Source: Gammaproteobacteria bacterium (GTDB lineage: Bacteria > Pseudomonadota > Gammaproteobacteria > Arenicellales > Spongiicolonaceae). From it: a stretch of DNA of 34,728 nt. Shown here one piece after another: positions 7,315 through 27,378 of this stretch (positions are counted from its first letter, which is position 1; the number at the start of each line of letters is the position of its first letter). The position numbers and the translations under genes are program-made. The stretch lies in the NCBI GenBank assembly GCA_028817275.1, contig JAPPPZ010000075.1, forward strand, positions 1-34,728, given 5' to 3'. The notes below the pieces were generated by a model. It saw nothing but the letters and a program-made list of their open reading frames with translations. It had not been told where the DNA came from and searched no databases.

Positions 7315-7920
7315 TCATGGTTTTCCGCAGGGCCACCAATACCACGGCTCTTTCAGAAAATCATGAATCGCTGTTTTGTTTTCGCAATCGTACAGGTTGC
7401 GTCCGTTGTTGGATGCGAATTGCGCCGCCGCCCATGCGGAAATTATGGCATCTCTTTCGTGCTCCGTTTTACCGTCCCCCGCCAGTTGTTTCGCTCCCGG
7501 ACATACCACCAGCAACGCTTTTGGATGAGTTTCAGTAATGCGGCATGCGGGATATTTCTTTTCAATCATCGCGGCAATCATAATGCCTTGAGCCAGGCAC
7601 GCGCCCCGAAGCGAATTTACCGCCTGCACGGTTCCCGCGGAGCCTTTGCTTTTTGGATTGATTTGCTTCCGAACGTATTTGTCAGATGCTCTGCTCTGGC
7701 CCGTGTATGGCCAATAAAGCGGCGCATCGATTCCGGCGGCAATTAATTCCCCGCTTTGTTCGGCGACAGATTTTTTGACTTTGCAAAATGCATCCATGGC
7801 GTGATTGGCAATGCCTGCCTCGATGAGACTCAGATTCGGCGGACTTGTTTGGGCAATGCACCAGCCAAATTTGCCTTGCCCACCAGGGTCAAAGCCGGCG
7901 ACTAACTCTAAACATTTCAT
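7315..7920 (-). CDS. DUF429-like protein, predicted RNase H-fold nuclease
   Basis: 201 residues. I recognise a DUF429-type layout by motif: VAGFDPGG at the N terminus, GIDAPLYWP near residue 64, RITETHPKALL in the middle and EHERDAIISAWAAA near the C terminus. These supply the spaced acidic residues of an RNase H-like active site. Function in this family is poorly known; nuclease activity is predicted only from the fold. The DNA is visibly less GC-rich than all neighbours, with many AT-ending codons, suggesting recent acquisition. The start at 7920 follows GAGGA by 7 bases. It lies downstream of the amidase in the same direction (29-base gap) but the change in composition argues against an old operon. 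Confidence 0.7.
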   Translation of the reverse strand: MKCLELVAGFDPGGQGKFGWCIAQTSPPNLSLIEAGIANHAMDAFCKVKKSVAEQSGELIAAGIDAPLYWPYTGQSRASDKYVRKQINPKSKGSAGTVQAVNSLRGACLAQGIMIAAMIEKKYPACRITETHPKALLVVCPGAKQLAGDGKTEHERDAIISAWAAAQFASNNGRNLYDCENKTAIHDFLKEPWYWWPCGKP

Positions 7921-7949
7921 CAGGATGTCCTCTGTGGCGGGTTTTTTGT

Positions 7950-9401
7950 TTAATGGTTAACGTTGACCGCCAGCAACGGAAGTTTTTCGGCGACGCCGGC
8001 GCGTTGTTCGATTTCTTTTGCCGCGCGCAGGAGTTTGGCTTCCTGGTGCGGGGCGGCGATGATTTGCAGGCCGATGGGCAGGCCGCCGGCGCTGAATCCA
8101 GCCGGTACTGAGATCGCCGGGCAGCCGGTGAGGGAAATGACCGAGGTGATGTTGATCCACTGCACATAGTTGTCAAACCGCACGCCGTTCACTTCCTCCA
8201 CAAAGCGCGCTTCGGCCGGGAACGGCGCGACGATGGCCGCCGGGCACAGCAGAAAATCATGGCGCTGAAAAAATTTTCCCATGCGCCGCGCAATTCGGGC
8301 GCGCTGGTTTTCGGCGGTGACGATTTCAGCGGCGCTGAGGGCCAGGCCTTTTTCAATGTTCCACACCAACTCCGGTTTTAATTTTTGGCGGTGAAGTTTG
8401 AGCACGTCGCCCAGTTCGGCGGCGAACAGTTTGGCGCGCAGCACCTGAAAACATTCCTCGGCGCCGGTGAAGTCCGGGCAGCGTTCCTCCACCGCCACCC
8501 CGGCCTCCGCCAGCAGCAGCGCCGCCCGCCGGCACACCGCCGCCACTTCCGCATCCGTCACCGTCACTCCGAGGTCGGCGCTGAACGCCGCCGGCCCCAG
8601 GGCCACCGTTTCCCGCTCCGCCGCATGCAAAAACGACTCGGCCGGCGCCGCCATGGCCAGCGGGTCGGCCGGGTGGGCGCCCGCCATGGCGTCCAGCAGC
8701 AGCGCCGCATCGGCCACGTTGCGCGCGATGGGGCCGTTCACCGACAGCGAATTGAAAACATCGCCGCCGTTGTTGTCGCGCGGCACCCGCCCCGGCGTCG
8801 GGCGCAGGCCGACCACGGCGTTGAACGCCGCCGGTGTGCGCAAACTGCCGCCGAGGTCGGAACCGGTGGCCAGCCAGCATTCGCCGGCGGCCACCGCCGC
8901 GCATGAACCGCCGGAAGAGCCGGCCACCGAGCGCGCGGTGTCCCACGGGTTGCGGGTGACGCCAAACACGTCGTTAAACGTGCTGGCGCCGGCGCCGAAC
9001 TCCGGCGTGTTGGACTTGCCCATGACGATGGCGCCGTTGCTTTCGATGCGCTCCACCATGACGTCGCTGCGCGCTGCGGTGTGGTTTTTGTACACCGCGC
9101 TGCCGAAAGTGCTGCGGACGCCGCGCACTTCGCTGAGGTCCTTAACCGCGGTGGGGATTCCGCCGAGCAGAGTCCGGGCGCTGCTTAACTTTTTTGCATG
9201 CTCTCTGGCGCGGTCGGTGCATTGCGTCGGCAAAGCGTTGAGGTGCGGCTCCACTTCGGCGATGCGCGCCGCCGATGCCTCCACCAGGTCCAGCGGCGAG
9301 ATTTCCCCGGCGGCAAGCAGCCGGCGCAGTTCGCACGCGCTCCGCCGCAACAACTCCCCGGCCACGGCCCCGCCCTCACCGCCGGCCGGGGGGCGGCGCA
9401 T
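7950..9401 (-). CDS. Amidase (amidase-signature family)
   Basis: Cytoplasmic amide hydrolase of 483 residues. The Ser-cisSer-Lys triad is complete: Lys87 in TAVKDLS, Ser162 in GSSGGS and nucleophile Ser186 in GSDLGGSLRTP (counting from ATG 9401). The C-terminal GCPAISVPAGF and GLPIGLQII segments are also typical. It looks like a stand-alone amidase rather than GatA, because gatB and gatC are absent and the C-terminal region fits the catabolic branch. The ATG overlaps the end of the upstream gene by 26 bases; GTG 9365 would avoid the overlap and still keep the whole domain, so the first 12 residues are doubtful. Substrate unknown; carbamoyl compounds are possible given the other nitrogen catabolism in the window. 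Confidence 0.9.
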   Translation of the reverse strand: MRRPPAGGEGGAVAGELLRRSACELRRLLAAGEISPLDLVEASAARIAEVEPHLNALPTQCTDRAREHAKKLSSARTLLGGIPTAVKDLSEVRGVRSTFGSAVYKNHTAARSDVMVERIESNGAIVMGKSNTPEFGAGASTFNDVFGVTRNPWDTARSVAGSSGGSCAAVAAGECWLATGSDLGGSLRTPAAFNAVVGLRPTPGRVPRDNNGGDVFNSLSVNGPIARNVADAALLLDAMAGAHPADPLAMAAPAESFLHAAERETVALGPAAFSADLGVTVTDAEVAAVCRRAALLLAEAGVAVEERCPDFTGAEECFQVLRAKLFAAELGDVLKLHRQKLKPELVWNIEKGLALSAAEIVTAENQRARIARRMGKFFQRHDFLLCPAAIVAPFPAEARFVEEVNGVRFDNYVQWINITSVISLTGCPAISVPAGFSAGGLPIGLQIIAAPHQEAKLLRAAKEIEQRAGVAEKLPLLAVNVNH

Positions 9402-22982: not shown

Positions 22983-23855
22983 TCAGACCGCCGCAAGGTT
23001 GCGGTAGGTCTCGGGCCGGCGGTCGCGGAAGAACTGCCACAGGTCGCGCACTTCGCGGACCATGTCCAGGTCAATGTCGTGCACCAGCAACTCGTCCTGG
23101 TCGTAACTGGCCTGGGCTTCAATTTTGCCGCGCGGGTTGACGATGTAACTGGAGCCGTAAAACTCGCCCATGCGCTCGGCCCACGGCTCCTCCCGGCCGA
23201 CGCGGTTGATGGCGCCGATAAAAACGCCGTTGGCCGCGGCCGAGGCCGGCTGCTCCAGTTCCCACAAATACTTGCTGAGGCCGGCCACGGTGGCCGAGGG
23301 GTTGACGATGTACTCGGCGCCGTTCAGCGCCAGGGCGCGCCAGCCTTCGGGGAAGTGGCGGTCGTAGCAGATGTAGACGCCGAGTTTAAGGTAGGCGGTG
23401 TCAAACACCGGGTAGCCGAGATTGCCGGGTTTGAAGAAAAACTTTTCGTAAAAGCCGGGGTCCACATGGGGGATGTGGGTTTTGCGGTATTTGCCGAGGT
23501 ATTTTCCGTCGGCGTCGATGACGGCCGCGGTGTTGTAGTAAACGCCGGGCATGTCCTCTTCGTAGATCGGCGACACAATCACCATGTTGTGCCTGGCCGC
23601 GCATTCCTGCATCAATTTCGTGGTGTCGCCGTCGGGAATGCGCTCGGCGGCGGCATACCACTTGCGCTCCTGCCCGGGGCAGAAATACGGCTGCGTCCAC
23701 ACCTCCTGAAAGCACAAAACCTGCACCCCGCGCGCGCCGGCCTCGGCCACCAGCGGCAGGTGCGCCTCCACCATGTGCCGCCGAATTTCCTCCGGCTGCA
23801 TGGAGGCGTCACCTTTGAGATTCATCTGAATCAAGCCGCATTTAACTTTGTGCAT
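22983..23855 (-). CDS. Beta-ureidopropionase (N-carbamoyl-beta-alanine amidohydrolase), nitrilase family
   Basis: 290 residues. The nitrilase catalytic triad is Glu51 (CFQEVW), Lys125 (YRKTHIPH) and Cys163 (YICYDRHFPE). The YFCPGQERKWY and HVDPGFYEKFFFKPG segments fit the beta-ureidopropionase/N-carbamoyl amidohydrolase branch. It releases beta-alanine or 3-aminoisobutyrate plus CO2 and ammonia, the last step of the reductive route. ATG 23855 begins the conserved KCGLIQM strand; the open frame upstream crosses an intergenic gap and the neighbouring gene and is rejected. First gene of the operon. N-carbamoyl-D-amino acid hydrolase is a less likely alternative. Confidence 0.92.
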   Translation of the reverse strand: MHKVKCGLIQMNLKGDASMQPEEIRRHMVEAHLPLVAEAGARGVQVLCFQEVWTQPYFCPGQERKWYAAAERIPDGDTTKLMQECAARHNMVIVSPIYEEDMPGVYYNTAAVIDADGKYLGKYRKTHIPHVDPGFYEKFFFKPGNLGYPVFDTAYLKLGVYICYDRHFPEGWRALALNGAEYIVNPSATVAGLSKYLWELEQPASAAANGVFIGAINRVGREEPWAERMGEFYGSSYIVNPRGKIEAQASYDQDELLVHDIDLDMVREVRDLWQFFRDRRPETYRNLAAV

Positions 23856-23882
23856 AATCAAGCCCCAAAGCAGGGTCAGGCA

Positions 23883-23912
23883 ATCATGGCACAACCCCGG
23901 GCGGCATGTCAA
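23883..23912 (-). promoter_or_regulatory. Candidate promoter of the pyrimidine-degradation operon
   Basis: On the minus strand a perfect -35 TTGACA (23907-23912) is followed after 18 bases by CATGAT (23883-23888, four of six). Transcription would start about 20 bases before the ATG at 23855. The -35 lies within a 14-base word (23901-23914) that also recurs at 24665-24678 after the second copy of the neighbouring module. Confidence 0.5.
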
Positions 23913-23914
23913 GC
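23901..23914 (+). repeat. 14-base boundary repeat, copy 1
   Basis: GCGGCATGTCAAGC here recurs exactly at 24665-24678. Each copy lies at the downstream side of a DUF6883-like gene, so it probably belongs to the duplicated unit. Confidence 0.6.
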
Positions 23915-23940
23915 CCGGGGCCGGCGGCGGTGAGGGCCTG

Positions 23941-24309
23941 TCAAACGCCGCCGCGCCGGTAGATTTCCGCCTCCTTTTTCTTCGCCGCGCGGGCATGCGG
24001 AGTCGCGCCCTCCGCGCTGATGTGCCAGATGGGGGTGATGAGGACTTTTCCCTTGCGCGGCGAGAGGATGCTGCCGCAGAAACGGTAGTTGGTGCCGCGC
24101 CGGCCCGGCCGCTTGCCAATATAAACCGCCCCGGCCAGTTGTGCGTGCAGGGCCTGTGCAAACTCCCCCGGCCTTTGCCGGGAAAAACCGCAGGTGTGAA
24201 TGAAAAAATTCGCCTTGGGTCCACCATCCTTGCGCCGGGTCTCCAGAAGATAGTCCACAAGTTTCGCGGGCGCGATGATTCCCTCCCTGAAAGGAGCGTC
24301 CTGGTCCAT
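23941..24309 (-). CDS. DUF6883-like protein, module copy 1
   Basis: 122 residues, soluble. From memory of family motifs it fits DUF6883 (APAKLVDYLL, GPKANFFIHTCGFSRQRPGEFAQALHAQL, NYRFCGSILSPRKGKVLITPIW); function is not established. The first 51 residues are identical to the neighbouring copy at 24673-25053, then the two diverge. In copy 2 the C terminus keeps PHFVTARP, while here it reads PHARAAKKK, so this copy has lost or changed that end. It begins 2 bases after the stop of the DUF4926-like gene, as in copy 2, implying a fixed two-gene unit. Confidence 0.7.
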   Translation of the reverse strand: MDQDAPFREGIIAPAKLVDYLLETRRKDGGPKANFFIHTCGFSRQRPGEFAQALHAQLAGAVYIGKRPGRRGTNYRFCGSILSPRKGKVLITPIWHISAEGATPHARAAKKKEAEIYRRGGV

Positions 24310-24354
24310 GCTCAGCCCATGCCGCTTTTCCAGACCAGTTCAACCTCGCTCTCG
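24155..24354. repeat. 200-base perfect direct repeat, copy A
   Basis: Read base by base, 24155-24354 is identical to 24899-25098 (offset 744). It covers the beginning of the DUF6883-like gene, the 2-base spacer and the end of the DUF4926-like gene. Both flanks remain similar but diverged. Confidence 0.95.
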
Positions 24355-24638
24355 TGGAGATCGAGAATGTTGTCATCGAGAATTTCCTCGAGGGAGTTGA
24401 ACTCCACCATGTACCAGCCACTCGGCTTGCCGGCATCGGCGTGGATGAGTACGACGGTGCCCTCGGCGCCTTTTTTGAAGCCGTCTTTCTCGTGCGCATC
24501 GGTGGCCAGTTTGACCACATCGTGCTCTTCGGTCACCCCCAATTTCGGCCGCGCTCGCGTGGCACCGCCAAAAACCGCCGCCCGGCCGGGGCCAGGCCGC
24601 CGCTCAGGAATTGCTGCCGCTGTACTGTGCATTGTCAT
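24312..24638 (-). CDS. DUF4926-like protein, module copy 1
   Basis: 108 residues from ATG 24638; ATG 24632 would give 106. A low-complexity N terminus (STAAAIPERRPG, shared with copy 2) is followed by a small beta-rich domain: HDVVKLATDAHEKDGFKKGAEGTVVLIH, YMVEF, and the ending ESEVELVWKSGMG. This is the pattern of DUF4926, whose members are small proteins often found next to other small unknown genes. No ribosome-binding sequence precedes the start, unlike copy 2. The next gene (DUF6883-like) begins 2 bases after its stop. Compared with copy 2 it lacks about 25 residues before the conserved domain. Confidence 0.65.
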   Translation of the reverse strand: MTMHSTAAAIPERRPGPGRAAVFGGATRARPKLGVTEEHDVVKLATDAHEKDGFKKGAEGTVVLIHADAGKPSGWYMVEFNSLEEILDDNILDLHESEVELVWKSGMG

Positions 24639-24664
24639 GGTTGGCATGTTTTTCACGGTTGGGG

Positions 24665-24678
24665 GCGGCATGTCAAGC
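24665..24678 (+). repeat. 14-base boundary repeat, copy 2
   Basis: Identical to 23901-23914. Here it overlaps the stop codon of the second DUF6883-like gene (TGA of TTGACA on the minus strand), whereas copy 1 lies 27 bases past its gene. Confidence 0.6.
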
Positions 24679-25053
24679 ATTTTTTGCGTCATGGATTTCA
24701 CGTTCTTTTTCCCATGCCGGGCGGGCGGTGACGAAGTGCGGGATCGCGCCTTCCCGGCTGATGCACCAGACACTGGTGATGCAGATTTTCCCCCGGCGCG
24801 GCGAGAGAAGGCTGCCGCAGAAAGCATAATTTACGCCGCCACTGGATGCGCGGCGTTTCCCCAGAAACACCGCCCCGGCCAGTTGCGCATGCAGGGCGTG
24901 TGCAAACTCCCCCGGCCTTTGCCGGGAAAAACCGCAGGTGTGAATGAAAAAATTCGCCTTGGGTCCACCATCCTTGCGCCGGGTCTCCAGAAGATAGTCC
25001 ACAAGTTTCGCGGGCGCGATGATTCCCTCCCTGAAAGGAGCGTCCTGGTCCAT
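24673..25053 (-). CDS. DUF6883-like protein, module copy 2
   Basis: 126 residues, paralogue of the gene at 23941-24309. The first 51 residues are identical to copy 1, then about half of positions match. The C terminus (WCISREGAIPHFVTARPAWEKE) keeps the pattern I associate with DUF6883 (a VW strand followed by P-x-LVTAYP), so this is probably the less altered copy. It starts 2 bases after the DUF4926-like stop. Role unknown; the fixed, tight two-gene order resembles toxin-antitoxin organisation, but no toxin motif is visible. Confidence 0.7.
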   Translation of the reverse strand: MDQDAPFREGIIAPAKLVDYLLETRRKDGGPKANFFIHTCGFSRQRPGEFAHALHAQLAGAVFLGKRRASSGGVNYAFCGSLLSPRRGKICITSVWCISREGAIPHFVTARPAWEKEREIHDAKNA

Positions 25054-25098
25054 GCTCAGCCCATGCCGCTTTTCCAGACCAGTTCAACCTCGCTCTCG
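24899..25098. repeat. 200-base perfect direct repeat, copy B
   Basis: Identical to 24155-24354. Its centre is the DUF4926-stop/DUF6883-start junction of module copy 2. Confidence 0.95.
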
Positions 25099-25460
25099 CC
25101 AAGGTCGAGAAAATGGCAGAAAGGATCCTCCATGTCCGGTCTTTTTTTGCGGTGGTCAAACTCCACCATAAACTGGCCGCCGGGCTTGCCGGCCTGGTCG
25201 GTGTAAATCACCACCACCGTCCCCTGCTCGCCTCTTTTGAAGCCTTTTTTCTCGTGGGCCTCGGTGGCCAGTTTGACCACGTCTAGTTCCTCCAGCAGCG
25301 CCCCGGATTTCAGCCGCATTTTCGGGTGGCGCGCAAGGGCATCGGCCACGGCGGCTGCGGACCAGGTTTTATGCTGAATCCGGGGGCGCGCCATGCCGCC
25401 CAAAGCCGCCCGGCCGGGCCGCCGCTCAGGAATCGCCGCCGCTGTGCTCATTGCGCTCAT
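25056..25460 (-). CDS. DUF4926-like protein, module copy 2
   Basis: 134 residues from ATG 25460, which is preceded by GAGGG at a suitable distance; ATG 25451 is an alternative. The N terminus STAAAIPERRPG matches copy 1. A segment absent from copy 1 follows (IQHKTWSAAAVADALARHP...), then the DUF4926-like domain ELDVVKLATEAHEKKGFKRGEQGTVVVIY, FMVEFDH and the shared ending ESEVELVWKSGMG. It is the first gene of the duplicated array, 46 bases downstream of the autotransporter stop on the same strand. Confidence 0.65.
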   Translation of the reverse strand: MSAMSTAAAIPERRPGRAALGGMARPRIQHKTWSAAAVADALARHPKMRLKSGALLEELDVVKLATEAHEKKGFKRGEQGTVVVIYTDQAGKPGGQFMVEFDHRKKRPDMEDPFCHFLDLGESEVELVWKSGMG

Positions 25461-25506: not shown

Positions 25507-27378
25507 TTAGAACCGCCACTCGCCGCTGAACAGGTTGCGGTAATCGGCGCGGTTGGCGTCGCTGAGGGCGGTTTCCAGAGACAGGGTCAGCCGCTGGCCG
25601 GCGCGGACGCTGAGGCCGCCGGCCAGGGTGCGGTCGCCGGAGGCGTCCATGGCCATGCGGGTGAACGGGGCGAGGCCGAAGCCCTGCCAGGCGGTGTCCA
25701 GCGCCAGGCGGGCCGAGATGTGGTTCTCCTCGTAGCGCGCGCTACCGTCCAGTTGGCGGGTGGTCTCGAGGCTGAAGTTGAGGCCCTGGTTGTCGGTCCA
25801 CTGGAAGCCGCCGCCCAGTTCGTAGGCGATGGCGTCGCTGGCGTCTTTGTAATCCTTGCGCGCGCCGGCGGTGGCGAACAGGCGCAACTCGCCGCCGGGG
25901 GTGTCCATGGTGTAGCCGAATTCCCACGAACTGCCGAGCCGCACCGCGGTGCTGTGGGAGCCGTCCAGCAACGCGCCGTTGCTGAGGGTGGCACTGCCCA
26001 GGTCGCTGGACACCCAGGCGACGTTGATGTTGAGGGCGACGTCGGCGGCGTCAAAGACGTCGCTGCGGCTACTGAGGCCGCCGCTGGCCATCATGGCGGT
26101 GAGTTTGGGGGCGGCGGTGGCGCTGTCCTCGGTGTATTTGAGGTTGCTGGTGCCGTAGCCGAGGGACAGCCACAGCGAGGTGGCGTCGCTGATCCAGCGC
26201 GCCCAGTAGGGATGCACGCTGGTCATGGCGCTGCGGATTTTGCCGCTCTGGCTGCCGGCGGTCCAGTCCAGGTCGCCGACGGTGTAGCCGAGGGTGACGC
26301 CGGCCAGCACCGCATCGCGCACCCAACTCTCGGCGCCGATGTGGAAGGCGGTGTTGTCGCCGTCGTAGGTGGTGCTGCTGCCGGTGGCGGTGGCGGGGAT
26401 GGTGCCGCTGACGCTGGTGCGGCCGCCGGCGCCCCATATGGTGAGGGTGTCGTTCACGCTGCTGAGACTGAAAGCGCTGGTGTTCAGCATCTCGGCCATG
26501 GTCATGGCGCCGCCATCGGCGGTGGCCGGGGCTTGGGCCGGCAGGGCGGCGCGCTGGCGGGGGTTGGCGGCCCAGGGGCGGGCGGCGCTGATGCGCCGGC
26601 CGGCGACGGTGAGGCTGCGCACATCGCCGGGCGGGCGGGCGGCGCCGCCACGGGTCAGGCGGCCGCGGATGATGCCGGCACCCAGCCGCTCCACCGCCTG
26701 GTTGGTCACCGTGCCCAGGGCCATCACCCGCGCCTGCCGCTGCGCCTGCCGCTCGGCCGGGTCGTCCTCCCGGATGGTGATGGGGACCAAGGCCGGCGCA
26801 TCCGGGTCGGTGCCGGCGCCGGTGACCGCCCACTGCACGGTGATGTCATCGGTGGGCGCCTCGCCGGAGACGCTGACGGTGAAGGCGGCATTGCCGACAT
26901 CCTCGCCGACCTGGGTGCCGGCGGCGGTATTGTCGGCGCCGGTGACGCTGGAGGCGGCGGCGATTGGGAAGCGGGGGGCCACGGTCACGGTCACATCCGC
27001 TATCGTTATGCTGTTGGGGTAATTGCCGGCGCCGCTGTCGAGTCTGTGGGTGATGGTCGTGCTGCCCACGGCCACGCCGGTGACGGTCACGGTATACGCG
27101 AAGTCCCGGTTATCGCCGTTGCTCCAGACCGGTTCGTCGTTGAAAGCGTCCGTCGTGAACGTGGCAATCATCTCATCCGAACTGCTCGGAATGACCGCCA
27201 TCTCGGCGGTTGGCTGGACAGTCAGACTCAAGGTGTATTGCGCCGTCGAGCCCACCTCGATCGTCAGCGAGGTCGGGCTGACGACCACCGCGGGCTGCTG
27301 CCCCAGTGCGACGCCGCTGAACGTGCACAAAACCACCGTCGCCACAGCGGCGAACCAAGAGCCATAACGAAGTGACAT
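25507..27378 (-). CDS. Autotransporter-barrel outer membrane protein with Ig-like N-terminal region
   Basis: 623 residues. A signal peptide occupies about 1-26 (ending GVALG). Residues 30-130 look like an immunoglobulin-like beta domain (VVVSPTSLTIEVGSTAQYTLSL, FAYTVTVTGVAVGSTTITH), followed by a second beta-rich region to about 210. A basic, Ala/Arg-rich helical stretch near 215-245 precedes a C-terminal beta barrel from about 300, with alternating aromatic strands and a final Trp-Arg-Phe, the outer-membrane assembly signal. The passenger is short and not a repetitive beta-helix, so this may be a surface-display or barrel-anchored adhesin. The ATG follows GGGAGG by 7 bases. Surface location is predicted from architecture; ligand unknown. 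Confidence 0.85.
   Translation of the reverse strand: MSLRYGSWFAAVATVVLCTFSGVALGQQPAVVVSPTSLTIEVGSTAQYTLSLTVQPTAEMAVIPSSSDEMIATFTTDAFNDEPVWSNGDNRDFAYTVTVTGVAVGSTTITHRLDSGAGNYPNSITIADVTVTVAPRFPIAAASSVTGADNTAAGTQVGEDVGNAAFTVSVSGEAPTDDITVQWAVTGAGTDPDAPALVPITIREDDPAERQAQRQARVMALGTVTNQAVERLGAGIIRGRLTRGGAARPPGDVRSLTVAGRRISAARPWAANPRQRAALPAQAPATADGGAMTMAEMLNTSAFSLSSVNDTLTIWGAGGRTSVSGTIPATATGSSTTYDGDNTAFHIGAESWVRDAVLAGVTLGYTVGDLDWTAGSQSGKIRSAMTSVHPYWARWISDATSLWLSLGYGTSNLKYTEDSATAAPKLTAMMASGGLSSRSDVFDAADVALNINVAWVSSDLGSATLSNGALLDGSHSTAVRLGSSWEFGYTMDTPGGELRLFATAGARKDYKDASDAIAYELGGGFQWTDNQGLNFSLETTRQLDGSARYEENHISARLALDTAWQGFGLAPFTRMAMDASGDRTLAGGLSVRAGQRLTLSLETALSDANRADYRNLFSGEWRF

Follow-up and report, generated by a model that had tools for sequence, protein, structure and literature searches.

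Tandem DUF4926-DUF6883 gene pairs with an identical junction are probable chromosomal toxin-antitoxin modules

The active site of the CdiA-CT toxin Kp342 comprises K157, Y160, H170, R252 and T255, and a Lys-Tyr-Thr triad is common to Kp342 and EC3006 (PMC9086364). Among type II toxin-antitoxin (TA) modules, 13 Pfam families with a BECR fold were listed in 2025 (PMC11980606). The locus described here lies within a window of 34,728 nucleotides, the whole stretch of DNA that was analyzed, and is best explained (probability about 0.68) as tandem chromosomal TA modules, each encoding a DUF6883 BECR-fold RNase toxin and a DUF4926 antitoxin, for which we infer toxicity, an RNA target and neutralization. 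In such a module DUF4926, a small SH3-like barrel co-translated from the upstream position, would bind DUF6883 and block it.

Two units were found head to tail on the minus strand, each with the DUF4926 gene followed by the DUF6883 gene, and the duplication with a perfectly conserved 200-base core reported in the initial annotation was borne out. In copy 2 the candidate antitoxin gene (25056..25319, minus strand, with a possible upstream extension of the ORF to 25496) precedes the candidate toxin gene (24673..25053, minus strand). In copy 1 the candidate DUF4926 antitoxin domain (about 24312..24545, minus strand) lies in an ORF that is open upstream to 24827 and precedes a probably inactive DUF6883 (23941..24309, minus strand). 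The DUF6883 ORFs are stand-alone, of 122 and 126 aa, and no larger secreted or packaged carrier was found for them. The identical core (24155..24354 in copy 1 and 24899..25098 in copy 2, no strand assigned) is a run of exactly 200 bases at a spacing of 744, and covers toxin codons 1-51 and the last 14 codons of the antitoxin. Both copies have the junction TGA-GC-ATG, with 2 bases from the antitoxin stop to the toxin start, from which co-transcription of the two genes may be inferred. The fixed 2-base spacing previously taken to mark a functional pair is thus real in both copies, but the junction falls inside the identical core, so that copy 2 does not provide independent evidence and the junction counts once; in the sister genome G001 the two genes have a 4-base overlap instead. 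No further full copy of the unit was found in a search of the genome's own 166-contig assembly.

On one side the units are flanked by a putative nitrilase-like gene at 22983..23855 (minus strand), and on the other by an autotransporter beta-domain protein gene at 25507..27378 (minus strand; Pfam PF03797, E 1.8e-10). Stretches resembling 25507-27378 were present on several G001 contigs; such a family of repeats may interrupt assemblies. A long plus-strand ORF at 23848-25206 spanning both units was interpreted as an antisense by-product of the high GC content. Elsewhere in the window, a DUF429 gene at 7321-7956 has a GC3 of 0.53 among genes of approximately 0.8 and is likely a recent arrival.

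The Pfam searches proposed in the initial annotation placed both DUF6883 proteins above the PF21814 gathering cut-off of 27 bits (copy 1, 35.6 bits, E 1.2e-8; copy 2, 43.5 bits, E 4.2e-11) and both DUF4926 proteins below that of PF16277, with 25.8 and 25.5 bits against 29.1 (E 7e-6 for copy 1 and 8.5e-6 for copy 2). The DUF4926 proteins are also linked to the family by where they lie and by a DUF4926 profile built from relatives, which includes both window copies and gave 86 bits for copy 2 and 82.6 bits for copy 1. AF2 models, for which the underlying alignments were shallow (13-14 sequences), were also produced. The model of the copy 2 DUF4926 (pLDDT 83.7) is an SH3-like barrel with SH3-like/KOW matches, nearest to NusG and PsaE-type folds, and the DNA-binding domain of many type II antitoxins was not recognizable in DUF4926.

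The copy 2 DUF6883 model (pLDDT 93.5) consists of alpha helices followed by a four-strand meander, the arrangement of the BECR fold, with modest Foldseek support (E 7e-3). The best solved matches were four chains of 6cp9, the CdiA-CT Kp342 complex (probability 1.00, TM about 0.6, E from 6.9e-3), followed by 7vd7, a Salmonella toxin-antitoxin complex; viral minor capsid proteins gave TM values of 0.73-0.75. Sequence profiles searched against the PDB produced chance-level matches only. Among 28 DUF6883 domains, counted where the residue is present, K16 was found in 27/27, Y20 in 27/27, K32 in 28/28 and T/S109 in 25/26, and all four positions are present in copy 2. The Lys-Tyr spacing of 4 is that of EC3006, a basic residue stands three before the Thr in most DUF6883 sequences as in Kp342, and K16, Y20 and T109 lie in elements matching the Kp342 triad, as judged by spacing and fold rather than by superposition. 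These data suggest a predicted catalytic set of Lys16-Tyr20-Thr109, helped by Lys32 and the basic residue three before Thr109, and on the strength of the model DUF6883 would be a metal-independent BECR-fold RNase toxin, most likely a tRNase.

The proposal that the two genes form a functional pair was supported by conservation of their neighborhood. Nearly all complete, stand-alone DUF6883 genes are adjoined by a DUF4926 match, across five phyla and in both gene orders, with DUF4926 upstream in the window, in the genomes G001, G210, G226, G330, G661 and G755 of the same phylum and on Methylobacterium plasmids, and downstream in Thermus, Meiothermus, Nostoc, Tolypothrix, Nitrosococcus, Rubrobacter, Subdoligranulum and others. 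The exceptions without an adjoining DUF4926 are fused proteins of 511/518 aa and partial or contig-edge pieces. Pairs are often on plasmids and also chromosomal; DUF6883 is patchily distributed, in 7/398 genomes of the phylum and 15/369 of the class, and several copies are visibly broken or interrupted. Small adjacent genes, kept as a pair, mobile and patchy, were thus found as in type II TA modules, and this distribution together with the broken copies is, as far as sequence comparison goes, the habit of toxin-antitoxin modules. The same pairing might instead reflect a two-subunit housekeeping or regulatory complex, given that DUF4926 has a fold like that of the SH3/KOW accessory proteins NusG and PsaE and that the toxicity of DUF6883 is deduced. 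This we consider improbable, however, in view of the patchy spread, the plasmids, both gene orders and the interrupted copies, of a fusion to a prophage MuF protein, and of a BECR toxin fold in which residues of a catalytic type are conserved.

No family in NCBIfam or PADLOC was assigned to the nine proteins scanned, and a PHROGs scan likewise gave none. A narrow scan of viral contigs detected no relative, and one of genome contigs matched the sister genome G001 only; a tblastn search of phages found no relative. In the open-access literature no paper naming DUF6883, PF21814 or PF16277 was found, and DUF4926 had one passing mention. Several variant arrangements were observed among the relatives. 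On Nostoc plasmid pNSMS103 (L033:2832-3297) the annotated DUF4926 gene is separated from DUF6883 by extra DUF4926 matches, which may represent an additional, broken antitoxin. The 511/518-aa family (L044:1105-2658 and L036:1682-3217) contains DUF6883 internally and lacks a neighboring DUF4926, and the L044 gene overlaps an ORF that matches UvrD_C_2 weakly. At L041:1489-2319 an SdhE (Sdh5) domain lies upstream of DUF6883 in one open frame (both by Pfam), representing either a fusion or two genes.

Two further contexts were identified. In a prophage-like region of an Anoxybacillus plasmid (L060), a minor capsid protein consists of Phage_Mu_F (E 2.6e-18) and a C-terminal DUF6883 (E 1.3e-20), its gene lying between the portal and scaffold genes, and is followed by an overlapping 56-aa ORF that begins VIEELDVVKL, like the start of DUF4926, with a profile match that is not significant. 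On plasmids of Rhizobium and Agrobacterium, the end of a BPTD_3080 restriction enzyme gene (so annotated in L062/L063) is overlapped by DUF6883, and the last residues of the enzyme show a weak DUF4926 match (Pfam E 0.003, below the cut-off; profile E 6e-4; DUF4926-like stretches at the enzyme C terminus at L062:1260-1394 and L015:1278-1412). This may point to an antitoxin fused to the restriction enzyme in a possible guard arrangement.

The occurrence of DUF6883 as a MuF C-terminal toxin, and of an autotransporter-domain gene next to the units, could also mean that the units are what is left of a secreted polymorphic toxin-immunity array, with orphan toxin tips and immunity genes, rather than an intracellular module. 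Against this, both DUF6883 genes begin at a start codon of their own, 2 bases past the stop of the antitoxin, neither is in frame with a carrier or secretion domain, and most relatives are stand-alone plasmid or chromosomal pairs, making such an origin unlikely. The likeness to polymorphic toxin-immunity arrays drawn in the initial annotation holds for DUF6883 as the tail of a MuF protein, whilst the window genes are stand-alone and TA-like, with no secreted carrier.

The history of the two units was reconstructed from the core. The units differ at 25.4% of the aligned columns that lie outside the core, and when the differences were shuffled in 5000 rounds the longest identical run never exceeded 73, against the 200 observed. 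Between copies, dS is 0 in the core (51 toxin and 14 antitoxin codons, the latter with two non-synonymous differences at the edge), compared with 0.78 in the toxin remainder and 1.09 in the antitoxin remainder beside it. In G001, the only congener found, a unit occupies the corresponding position, with the nitrilase-like gene again next to it. The G001 contig ends inside its first unit, and window DNA from the far side matches mainly repeated autotransporter-like pieces in G001. The syntenic nitrilase-like gene, used as a divergence clock, has a dS of 0.11 between the two genomes, whilst the core has a saturated dS of 1.97 to G001; the units evolve or are exchanged much faster than the neighboring gene. 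Were the core as old as the species split, the chance of zero differences would be approximately 0.01 (pS 0.103, approximately 43 silent sites). Identity that extends to silent sites but is confined to a sharply bounded block, with the paralogues diverged around it, is the pattern of a gene conversion tract, and recent gene conversion, or an equivalent partial re-duplication, would be the simplest cause of the core identity, in agreement with the original reading of an identical core in diverged flanks. The other suggestion made there, selection on exchangeable ends, did not fit, as the exchanged segment is the antitoxin C-terminal tip and the N-terminal half of the toxin and not the toxin C-terminal end. 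GC3 is 0.65-0.74 in the units and 0.61 in the core against 0.84-0.91 in neighboring genes, in keeping with a possible foreign origin of the units.

Copies or strains with slightly different cores might also have been collapsed by assembly into one metagenome consensus. The source assembly (2.0 Mb) is in 166 contigs and 92.9% complete, 200 bases is longer than the k-mers commonly used in assembly, the contig of the sister genome is broken within the unit, and a few differences could be hidden in this way; however, a unique stretch of 544 bases connects the two cores, so that a tandem loop is required unless strains were mixed, and a few differences are hideable where divergence at the 25% level of the flanks is not, leaving this explanation only a small chance. 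Strong constraint on the nucleotide sequence itself, such as an RNA element or overlapping signal, would suit a core covering the gene junction, the site of translational coupling signals, but was rejected as very improbable because core silent sites are saturated relative to G001 whereas the toxin remainder has a lower dS of 0.29-0.64, indicating no constraint at the nucleotide level and a recent origin of the identity between copies.

Under the gene conversion reading, the units would have been duplicated, or have arrived separately, long ago and then drifted, until the 200 junction-spanning bases of one unit were recently copied into the other by conversion or partial re-duplication. Copy 2 would be a complete module, whilst copy 1 would have kept its antitoxin and lost function in its toxin. 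The changed C terminus noted earlier for copy 1 is real: in a three-way alignment with copy 2 and G001 its DUF6883 lacks FVT in the last strand, so that the predicted catalytic Thr is gone, and it is the only domain without T/S at position 109 among the 26 with a residue there. As its antitoxin domain is intact, copy 1 probably represents a dead toxin beside an intact antitoxin domain, the effect of the loss being deduced from the alignment, and is probably either a spare antidote or a decaying module. The altered end looks like decay rather than swapped specificity.

The useful part of the analysis is the family assignment, for which no priority is claimed. Two domains of unknown function, carried as a pair without functional annotation by genomes of several phyla, gain a concrete and testable role, one as a predicted tRNase toxin for which catalytic residues can be named and the other as the cognate antitoxin. 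The restriction enzyme and MuF contexts tie the pair to phage defense and phage-borne competition; if a restriction enzyme does bear an antitoxin tail, its inhibition or loss would free the toxin. The tandem locus itself is a clear small case of probable conversion across a TA junction with one toxin copy degraded. A broader and rather doubtful proposal, offered tentatively, is that DUF6883-DUF4926 constitutes an undescribed family of BECR tRNases with SH3-barrel antitoxins in three settings (free, as a MuF payload and as a toxin guarded by a restriction enzyme), in which junction conversion keeps the antitoxin tip and toxin N-terminal half matched while the rest diverges.

Compared with known systems, the DUF6883 model resembles CdiA-CT Kp342/EC3006 in its helices followed by a four-strand meander, and the conserved Lys and Tyr of a helix and the Thr of the last strand may correspond to the triad reported for these toxins (PMC9086364), but DUF6883 is stand-alone and not a secreted C terminus, has 12-17% identity to these toxins and has Lys32 where they use a key His. 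The window antitoxin is a predicted SH3-like barrel, whereas CdiI is a beta sandwich or alpha solenoid. With RelE/ParE-superfamily type II modules the pair shares a two-gene operon, a small predicted BECR toxin, both gene orders and plasmid as well as chromosomal locations; it differs in that PF21814 is absent from the 13 BECR Pfam families (PMC11980606), in that the predicted active site is of tRNase rather than mRNase type, and in that DUF4926 has no recognizable DNA-binding domain. MuF polymorphic toxins of temperate phages (PMC5576092) are approached by the Anoxybacillus protein, with its C-terminal DUF6883 and short overlapping gene downstream, whilst the window pair lacks a MuF carrier and had no phage genes in view next to it. 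The BPTD_3080 enzymes share a weakly DUF4926-like end and the overlap with a DUF6883 gene; in the window no restriction enzyme lies beside the pair, and DUF4926 is a separate small protein.
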